From a virus, in the IMG/VR virus record IMGVR_UViG_3300011126_000148, positions 1 through 25,708 of that record: a stretch of 25,708 bases of DNA. One strand, given 5' to 3'. Positions 19,792-21,416 of this stretch are shown piece after piece (positions within the stretch are counted from its first letter, which is position 1; the number at the start of each line of letters is the position of its first letter). Both the position numbers and the translations under genes were made by a program. A model generated the notes under the pieces. That model was given only the letters and a program-made list of their open reading frames with translations. It had not been told where the DNA came from and searched no databases.

Positions 19792-19936
19792 TAAGTTCGT
19801 TTTACTTACCTTGTTAGGAATCATGGTAATTGATTTTCTATTCTTTGCTGCCTGCCATTTTCGCAAGCGTCGCGAAGATCAGCCAAAGCCCGAGCGCCAC
19901 GTCTGCGAGCTGTGCGACGGAAGGAGAACTAGATGA
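19781..19936 (+). CDS. Small single-pass membrane protein
   Basis: 51 residues: MSANKFVLLTLLGIMVIDFL FFAACHF is a membrane segment, followed by a basic stretch (RKRREDQPKPERH) and a CELC knuckle near the end. Overlaps the previous gene by 11 nt and the next start by ATGA. GGAGAG lies upstream. Function unknown. Confidence 0.55.
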   Translation: MSANKFVLLTLLGIMVIDFLFFAACHFRKRREDQPKPERHVCELCDGRRTR

Positions 19937-20136
19937 ATGAGCCAATCGTTTTAACAGATGACGAGATTAAGCAGATAACCGGATACGTTCAGCCGAGCGC
20001 ACAGCAGCGATGGCTAATCCAGAACCTGGGCGTTAGCGCAGAGCGTCGTGCGGACGGCTCGCTATCTGTTGACCGGCGGGCGTACTATCAAAAGCGCGGT
20101 ATCAAAATTGAGCGCAGACCGGAGCTAAGAATCTAA
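19933..20136 (+). CDS. DUF4224-family protein
   Basis: 67 residues. LTDDEIKQITGYVQPSAQQR WLIQNLGVSAERRADGSLSV is the DUF4224 pattern, a small helical domain almost always found immediately upstream of a phage integrase. AAGGAG before the start; its TAA overlaps the integrase ATG. The tight coupling suggests it assists integration or excision, or acts as a directionality factor. That role is inferred from linkage only. Confidence 0.85.
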   Translation: MNEPIVLTDDEIKQITGYVQPSAQQRWLIQNLGVSAERRADGSLSVDRRAYYQKRGIKIERRPELRI

Positions 20137-21170
20137 TGCCTCCCCGCAAGAGAACGAACAAAAATAACAGGTCACTGCCCCAGCGCTGGGAGTGGCACGG
20201 CGGGAAGATTTATTACCAGATTCCGCCAAGCGTTGCCGGTCACGATGCCTTTGGTGGCAACCGCCGCCGCATCGTTTTGGGTGCGACACTGAGTGAGGCC
20301 CATCGCAAATGGTCTGAGATTATGAGTCGCTTTGATGTGCCGACGCCTTCGACCATGAGCCAGCTTATCCATGATTTTAGATCAAAGGTCGTGCCTACCA
20401 AGGCGGTCACAACGCAGACGGGATACTTGCGATCGCTCGCCAAAATTGAAGGCGCGTTCCAAGAATTTCACCCGTCACAGATAACGCCAGCCCATGCCTA
20501 CAAATATGCCGATAACATTAAGGGCGGCAAGCATGACGTGCGCGTTTTATCCGCCCTGCTCTCTTATGCCGTGCGTATTGGAATGATTGATCGAAACCCG
20601 CTCATAGGGCAGTACAAGGCCGCTGGAGCGCCTAAGCGGGAATACGTTACCGATGCCAATCTAAATAGGTTTTATGGTGTGCTGGAGCGTAAATGGCAGC
20701 TCTACGTTGACCTAAAGCTGGAGACGGGTTTGAGGCAGGCGGACATGTTGCAGCTATCGTGGCCAAACATAACCGAGGAAGGGATTTTCAGGCGGACGCA
20801 GAAAACGGGAAAGAAGTTGATTTTCAGTTGGACACCTGAGCTGCGCGCAATTATCGACGAGCTCAAGTCATTGCCGCGCAGTGTCGGCAGCATTTATCTA
20901 TTCGCCCAGCGCAGCGGCCAGAGTTACTACAACGCCGCTACAGGTCGGGCGGATGGCTTTCAATCAATGTGGCAACGCTGGAAAAAGAAAGCAGGCGTCA
21001 AATTCACCGAGCACGACCTAAGAGGCAAAGCCGCAAGCGATTCAAGTTTGCTCGATGCACAGCAGGCGCTAGGCCATGAAACGACGGCGACGACCAGAGG
21101 CTACAGAACGGCCCCTGACATGGTTAAACCTTTGGGTATATCCCGCAAGACAAACACCAAAAAACAGTGA
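20136..21170 (+). CDS. int: Tyrosine site-specific integrase
   Basis: 344 residues. N-terminal arm-binding domain of lambda-Int type (MPPRKRTNKNNRSLPQRWEW, KIYYQIPPSVAG), core-binding domain about 72-165, catalytic domain to the end. Catalytic set: Arg200 (ETGLRQADM), a Lys near 223-226, His293 and Arg296 (EHDLRGKA), His314 (LGHE), Tyr323 (TRGYRT). All are present, so it should be active. It inserts phage DNA at a host tRNA-Asn gene, given the attP just downstream. The end of the gene encodes PLGIS with the first arm-site copy. It is the last gene of the plus-strand operon. Confidence 0.96.
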   Translation: MPPRKRTNKNNRSLPQRWEWHGGKIYYQIPPSVAGHDAFGGNRRRIVLGATLSEAHRKWSEIMSRFDVPTPSTMSQLIHDFRSKVVPTKAVTTQTGYLRSLAKIEGAFQEFHPSQITPAHAYKYADNIKGGKHDVRVLSALLSYAVRIGMIDRNPLIGQYKAAGAPKREYVTDANLNRFYGVLERKWQLYVDLKLETGLRQADMLQLSWPNITEEGIFRRTQKTGKKLIFSWTPELRAIIDELKSLPRSVGSIYLFAQRSGQSYYNAATGRADGFQSMWQRWKKKAGVKFTEHDLRGKAASDSSLLDAQQALGHETTATTRGYRTAPDMVKPLGISRKTNTKKQ

Positions 21171-21371
21171 CTTACAGGCATTGAGGGTGAAAATATATAC
21201 CCAAAATGGCAGGTGCTAAGGTGCTGATAAATATAATGAATGTGGCCGATAGAAATAATGACTGTTAATCATTGGGTCGCTGGTTCGAGCCCAGCAGGCG
21301 GAGCCAAATAAAAGGCGTTACAGGTTACTAACCGCTAACGCATTGGGTATATACCGGCATCTTGGGTATAT
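21132..21371. promoter_or_regulatory. Four arm-type integrase sites flanking attP
   Basis: Exact copies of TTGGGTATAT at 21132-21141 (plus, inside the integrase gene), 21195-21204 (minus orientation), 21343-21352 and 21362-21371 (both plus, 19 bp apart). Two lie on each side of the tRNA-like core. Lambda-type integrases bind such arm sites through the N-terminal domain. The repeat is seen directly; the binding role is inferred. Confidence 0.85.
21257..21306 (+). other. attP core: 3' half of a tRNA-Asn gene
   Basis: Anticodon stem AATGA, loop CTGTTAA (anticodon GTT, Asn), stem TCATT, variable loop, T arm GCTGG-TTCGAGC-CCAGC, acceptor strand AGGCGGA? and GCCA end at 21306. The matching 5' half is absent upstream, so this is not a working tRNA. 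It is the stretch of identity that would restore the 3' end of the host tRNA-Asn gene after integration. The bacterial attachment site is therefore predicted to be that gene. Confidence 0.9.
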
Positions 21372-21379
21372 AATTCAAG

Positions 21380-21416
21380 AAAAAGCCCCGCTGGTTTGCA
21401 CTGACGGGGCTTTTTT
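21380..21416. terminator. Bidirectional terminator between attP and tail genes
   Basis: AAAAAGCCCCG, 14-nt loop, CGGGGCTTTTTT. The 11-bp stem has A and T runs on both sides, so it can stop the integrase operon from the left and the tail operon from the right. It sits between two convergent units. Confidence 0.92.

Follow-up and report, generated by a model that had tools for sequence, protein, structure and literature searches.

A very probable tRNA-Asn attachment site with four identical arm-type sites in a marine temperate phage

Within a few hundred base pairs, a viral DNA record combines the 3' part of a bacterial tRNA-Asn gene, four copies of one 10-mer and the end of an integrase gene, which raises the question of whether this locus is the site through which the virus inserts into its host, and which protein would recognise the repeats. 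The window, that is, the whole stretch of DNA analysed, is a linear IMG/VR virus record of 25,708 bp. It encodes an integrase (int), a DUF4224/PHROG-excisionase protein, a CI/LexA-like repressor, an ERF recombinase, an SSB, replication genes and tail genes, and probably represents an incomplete temperate tailed phage. The left end of the record is an assembly chimera: positions 141–204 carry an Illumina P7/TruSeq index adapter (exact match to GACTGGAGTTCAGACGTGTGCTCTTCCGATCT), and the ORF at 95–262 is partly adapter.

The int gene (20136–21170, plus strand) encodes a tyrosine integrase of 344 aa that matches PF00589 above the cut-off (E=2e-11) and the integrase family phrog_1 (8.9e-35). Residues R200, H293, R296, H314 and Y323 occupy the positions of the catalytic residues, with the HxxR motif, the second histidine and the tyrosine of a tyrosine recombinase catalytic domain all present. 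Lambda Int (1z1b, 5j0n) can be aligned with a profile built on five integrases, starting at residue 4 and including the N-domain (E about 2e-6), and this alignment indicates an N-terminal arm-binding domain. The N-domain of lambda Int is ordered as three strands followed by a helix; an AlphaFold model of the integrase, built from three sequences and too poor for a fold search (pLDDT 47.5 overall), places three strands and a helix in residues 18–63 with low confidence. Directly upstream lies a gene for a DUF4224 protein of 67 aa (19933–20136, plus strand; PF13986, 4.7e-10; phrog_1266 excisionase, 1e-9), a probable excisionase (recombination directionality factor), and in the relatives an excisionase or DUF4224 protein is likewise annotated just upstream of int.

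An earlier note had described four exact 10-mers in 240 bp, two on each side of the tRNA-Asn part and one of those on the left inverted, and an exact-match search of the whole window found precisely this arrangement: TTGGGTATAT occurs four times in the 25,708 bp, every copy inside 21132–21371. On the int side, the outer copy (site 1; 21132–21141, plus strand) lies in the int reading frame and the inner copy (site 2; 21195–21204, minus strand) is inverted, while beyond the tRNA-Asn part site 3 (21343–21352) and, 19 bp from it, site 4 (21362–21371) are both on the plus strand. Copies of TTGGGTATAT with two mismatches were not more numerous in the window than expected by chance, so only the exact copies matter. 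Some 10-mer present four times within 240 bp was encountered in one of 200 dinucleotide shuffles of the whole window; taken alone, the count is a suggestive signal of non-chance origin.

Integrase homologues at 71% identity were found in a 40-kb viral contig (L002), in a 12.4-kb viral contig (L003/L007) and in L004, Phage CBW1004C-Prop1 (MZ188970.1), a linear record with its two termini joining at the int stop. When the sequences were aligned on the core and offsets were counted from the start of its 49-mer, the four sites of L002 and L004 lay at -129, -66, +82 and +101, as in the window, with 40/40 site bases conserved; site 1 is also intact (10/10) in L003, site 2 is kept (10/10) at the same distance in the relatives, and sites 3 and 4 are likewise 10/10 in the relatives. 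Between the sites, identity of the window to L002 was 61% (int tail), 44%, 33%, 73% (core to site 3), 56% and 25% (after site 4). Because all four sites are exactly kept, in sequence and in position, in L002 and L004, the earlier claim that the repeats are not chance can be considered settled. Two close copies do turn out to be simple repeats in some other viral contigs, and the four copies might by analogy have been chance or an unrelated repeat beside a decayed prophage end; this reading has a negligible probability and appears already refuted by the comparison of relatives, given that sites and spacing are exactly conserved across phages whose integrases are 71% identical, and that int and attP are both complete.

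Beyond these relatives, megablast matches among phages were limited to the att region of MZ188970.1 and a 58-bp match to four Vibrio phages. A scan of viral contigs for a two-site pattern returned, besides the known relative, mostly repeat-coding genes or unrelated repeats lacking an integrase relative. No close integrase homologue was detected in genome contigs or in 46 Alcanivorax-group genomes, where the only candidate was a 37%-identical integrase at a tRNA-Lys gene. In that locus, from Alcanivorax sp. DSM 26293 (L102:2247-2275), a doublet of AAAGTGGGGA with copies 19 bp apart lies between int and the tRNA, in a mirror-image layout.

The sites enclose the tRNA-Asn 3' part that the earlier note had recognised, at a length of 53 bp rather than the 50 bp proposed. 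This core (AATGACTGTTAATCATTGGGTCGCTGGTTCGAGCCCAGCAGGCGGAGCCAAAT; 21257–21309, plus strand) runs from the anticodon stem-loop to the 3' end of tRNA-Asn(GTT) and matches the same stretch of complete host tRNA-Asn(GTT) genes at every base. ARAGORN detected no complete tRNA in the window, as expected because only the 3' part is present. The leftmost bases identical to the tRNA are exactly AATGA, which form the 5' strand of the anticodon stem, and AATGA-CTGTTAA-TCATT can thus be read naturally as two core-type half-sites separated by a 7-bp overlap. Sites centred on the anticodon are among the main known classes of integration sites, and an identity edge at the anticodon stem is their usual sign (Islander, PMC4383910). 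The anticodon loop CTGTTAA (21262–21268, plus strand), between the inverted flanks AATGA and TCATT, is the likely place where strands would be exchanged.

The arms carry further elements. The only match to the IHF consensus in the window, WATCARNNNNTTR (TATCAGCACCTTA), is situated between site 2 and the core (21217–21229, minus strand), and the consensus recurs at -44 in L002, L003 and L004 despite diverged surrounding sequence; uniqueness and conservation together support a predicted IHF site as in a lambda-type attP. A consensus scan of the window found no counterpart in the right arm, which leaves the bend on that side unexplained. The 33-bp spacer from the core to the right-arm sites (21310–21342) is 70–73% identical to the relatives, against 25–61% in the other non-site spacers, and contains the partial palindrome GCGTTA-GTTACTAAC-TAACGC, making it a candidate site for the excisionase or a bending protein. 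Past site 4, an 11-bp inverted repeat with A/T flanks (21380–21415) is a probable two-way terminator situated between int and the convergent tail gene; it was not called by a strict terminator scan, its loop being long.

As to the insertion locus, an exact search with the 49-bp core retrieved at least 80 loci in bacterial genomes; the matches listed were mostly complete tRNA-Asn genes and belonged mostly to Porticoccaceae/SAR92, Microbulbifer, Alcanivorax and other Pseudomonadales. The earlier note had called for a prophage adjoining a tRNA-Asn gene with the same ending of about 50 bp, and such junctions exist in lysogens of the relatives. In an Alcanivorax bin (L039), the phage right arm, carrying both of its sites, begins immediately after a complete tRNA-Asn gene, constituting attL. 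In L003, from an Alcanivorax-like host, int, both left sites and the core are followed by host sequence, constituting attR; this flank is 94% identical over 301 bp to the region downstream of the tRNA-Asn gene of Alcanivorax hongdengensis, with galE- and cysC-like genes further on. Empty attB sites are present in other Alcanivorax (L052, L053, L076 and L085). The lysogens found are those of relatives, and none of this exact phage was recovered. From the sequences of these junctions, the core of this phage group is seen to rebuild the tRNA, and int is left at the opposite end of the prophage. In the window itself both arms are intact and int and tail genes flank the attP, so the DNA is not a single integrated prophage; the assembled DNA derives from phage DNA in its excised form, circular or concatemeric.

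Of the prediction that this attachment site would reveal the host locus, the locus holds, as the relatives' prophages are located there, while the host species does not follow, as the core is common to many Pseudomonadales: judged by the sequence matches, the core gives the locus and does not name the host. The exact 49-bp core also occurs in the alphaproteobacterium Kordiimonas laminariae (L055:6234-6282); the core by itself therefore does not restrict the host to Pseudomonadales. We also observed tandem arrays, with a unit of about 130–138 bp, of truncated tRNA-Asn 3'-part fragments (L053:1500-1740, L043:2728-3524, L003:4250-4440), which lie downstream of the tRNA-Asn gene in Alcanivorax, Gilvimarinus and others. 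Each fragment has a terminator-like stem, many carry a hairpin in place of the variable/T-arm region, and fragments without a D-arm were found at 6/79 loci examined; Rfam recognised only the true tRNA in these arrays, which we take to be similar to the rtT repeats that follow tyrT in E. coli.

The repeated sites on both sides of the core, four exact and conserved copies, are what a lambda-type attP displays, and they are probably gripped by the viral integrase. Recognition by the DUF4224 excisionase or another accessory protein instead of the integrase N-domain would still make this region an attP, and att arms are where excisionases bind; a probable excisionase gene is directly upstream of int, and since every phage compared carries an excisionase-like gene, the pattern as such cannot separate the two proteins. 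Two lines of evidence make this assignment quite unlikely. The sites are paired on both arms, like the integrase arm sites of lambda, cluster K and cluster J phages (PMC4880445, PMC3203893, PMC3706429). Moreover, the window and Xanthomonas phage PBR31 have similar motifs, and identity between the two is 46% for the integrase N-domain, compared with 31% for the excisionase. Binding of the four sites by the integrase N-domain is thus the reading that we retain.

One site is coding, as the earlier note had stated in assigning it to the PLGIS of the integrase: a frame check placed site 1 (TTG GGT ATA T) at the codons for L-G-I-S of the C-terminal end of int, ...VKPLGISRKTNTKKQ, just before the stop. 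TTG, GGT and ATA are minority codons, accounting here for 16, 20 and 14% of the Leu, Gly and Ile codons, and all three are identical in the relatives, a state shared by only 43% of conserved degenerate codons there. Unchanged minority codons suggest that selection probably acts on the DNA of site 1. The same conserved codons could be taken as a sign of functional coupling, in which integrase bound at the 3' end of its own gene, or the PLGIS tail itself, regulates the amount or activity of integrase; in cluster J mycobacteriophages, sites resembling arm-type sites are reported across the start of int, and a regulatory role has been proposed for them (PMC3706429). An arm-site role already explains the DNA conservation, the C-terminal tail is missing from the 37%-identical Alcanivorax integrase, and in PBR31, with a 32%-identical integrase, the four sites are laid out in the same way but start 10 bp beyond the int stop, so that the equivalent site is not coding. 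A regulatory role was accordingly ranked low after the PBR31 comparison, and we give it little credence. Most likely, the int frame has run about 11 codons past the stop of the PBR31 integrase and over a pre-existing site, and the coupling of binding site to protein sequence that the earlier note had seen in it is probably incidental. Our partial coverage of the literature, weak evidence in this respect, yielded no report of an arm site in the 3' coding end of int or of a prophage at the tRNA-Asn of Alcanivorax.

The arrangement itself extends beyond close relatives. One arm has an outer plus and an inner minus site at a distance of about 63 bp, and the other a doublet 18–21 bp apart; an unguided repeat search among integrase relatives first revealed it, and it was then tested in a small survey. 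The window, L002 and PBR31 show it in one orientation and Pacha_bin_1, PA8, mEp390 and 587AP2 in mirror image, compared with 0/1300 shuffles, and F10 and KpF5 match it with looser motifs. The regions from SI8, Baybae, BUCT708 and Evi failed the four-site test, and some relatives have no recognisable set. PA8, KpF5 and mEp390 have a tRNA running antisense to int, with the doublet (or triplet) adjoining int; the window and PBR31 have a sense tRNA, with the inverted pair adjoining int, as if the att module had been turned around relative to int. In lambda, int lies beside the arm carrying close repeats, unlike int of the window, which lies beside the arm with the inverted pair. We tentatively propose, as a possibility somewhat short of even, that the four-site geometry is a conserved module reversed at least once relative to int-xis, and that here the outermost arm site has thereby joined the integrase gene and int has come to lie far from the rebuilt tRNA, which may alter how integrase supply responds to integration. 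No description of such a turned-around module was found in the part of the literature covered.

Taken together, these findings make it very probable that a temperate phage carrying a lambda-type (heterobivalent) tyrosine integrase has its attP in this region; that it is an ordinary example of a marine bacterial virus's insertion site into the host asparagine-tRNA gene is well supported. The sequences of the sites, their conserved spacing, the IHF consensus, the att junctions in relatives and the families of the genes are shown, and the protein-DNA contacts, the crossover position and the role of the excisionase are inferred. The catalytic part of the integrase would pair the phage tRNA-Asn fragment with the host tRNA-Asn gene, and strands would be exchanged in the anticodon loop, with the phage-borne 3' half rebuilding the tRNA. 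Meanwhile the N-terminal domain would grip the four TTGGGTATAT sites, two per arm; IHF would bend the int-side arm in the interval from site 2 to the core, and the DUF4224 protein, as the likely excisionase, would switch the reaction to excision. The locus provides a precise attP/attB pair with its integrase for marine Pseudomonadales (Alcanivorax, Microbulbifer) that could become an integration tool, and a four-site geometry readable across integrases only 25–35% identical helps to find the attachment sites of uncharacterised phages.

Among known systems, Phage CBW1004C-Prop1 and IMGVR_UViG_3300029787_000122 share with the window the core, the four sites, their spacing and integrases about 71% identical, whereas most of their other genes lack similarity in nucleotide sequence; the attP is not annotated in the deposited record MZ188970.1. 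In PBR31, four sites of a similar motif (TGGGTCATAG) surround a tRNA 3' part in this layout and in the same orientation, but the phage differs in its 32%-identical integrase, in its tRNA and in having all sites outside int. The lambda attP/Int system likewise combines a heterobivalent tyrosine integrase with an N-terminal arm-binding domain, a core between two arms, an IHF site and an excisionase upstream of int, in about 240 bp in all (PMC4880445); the window departs from it in its target, a tRNA anticodon stem-loop, in having four arm sites instead of five, and in their sequence. Mycobacteriophages of clusters J and K (Omega, CrimD) carry two pairs of 10–11 bp arm sites around a tRNA/tmRNA core; the cluster J core has its end within the anticodon loop, at about 100 bp from the int 3' end (PMC3203893, PMC3706429). 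Their hosts, site sequences, orientations and spacings are different, and the passages covered mention no arm site in the int 3' coding end; they do document, for mycobacteriophages, both four-site attPs whose core is at the anticodon loop and arm-like sites that extend over the start of int (PMC3203893, PMC3706429).
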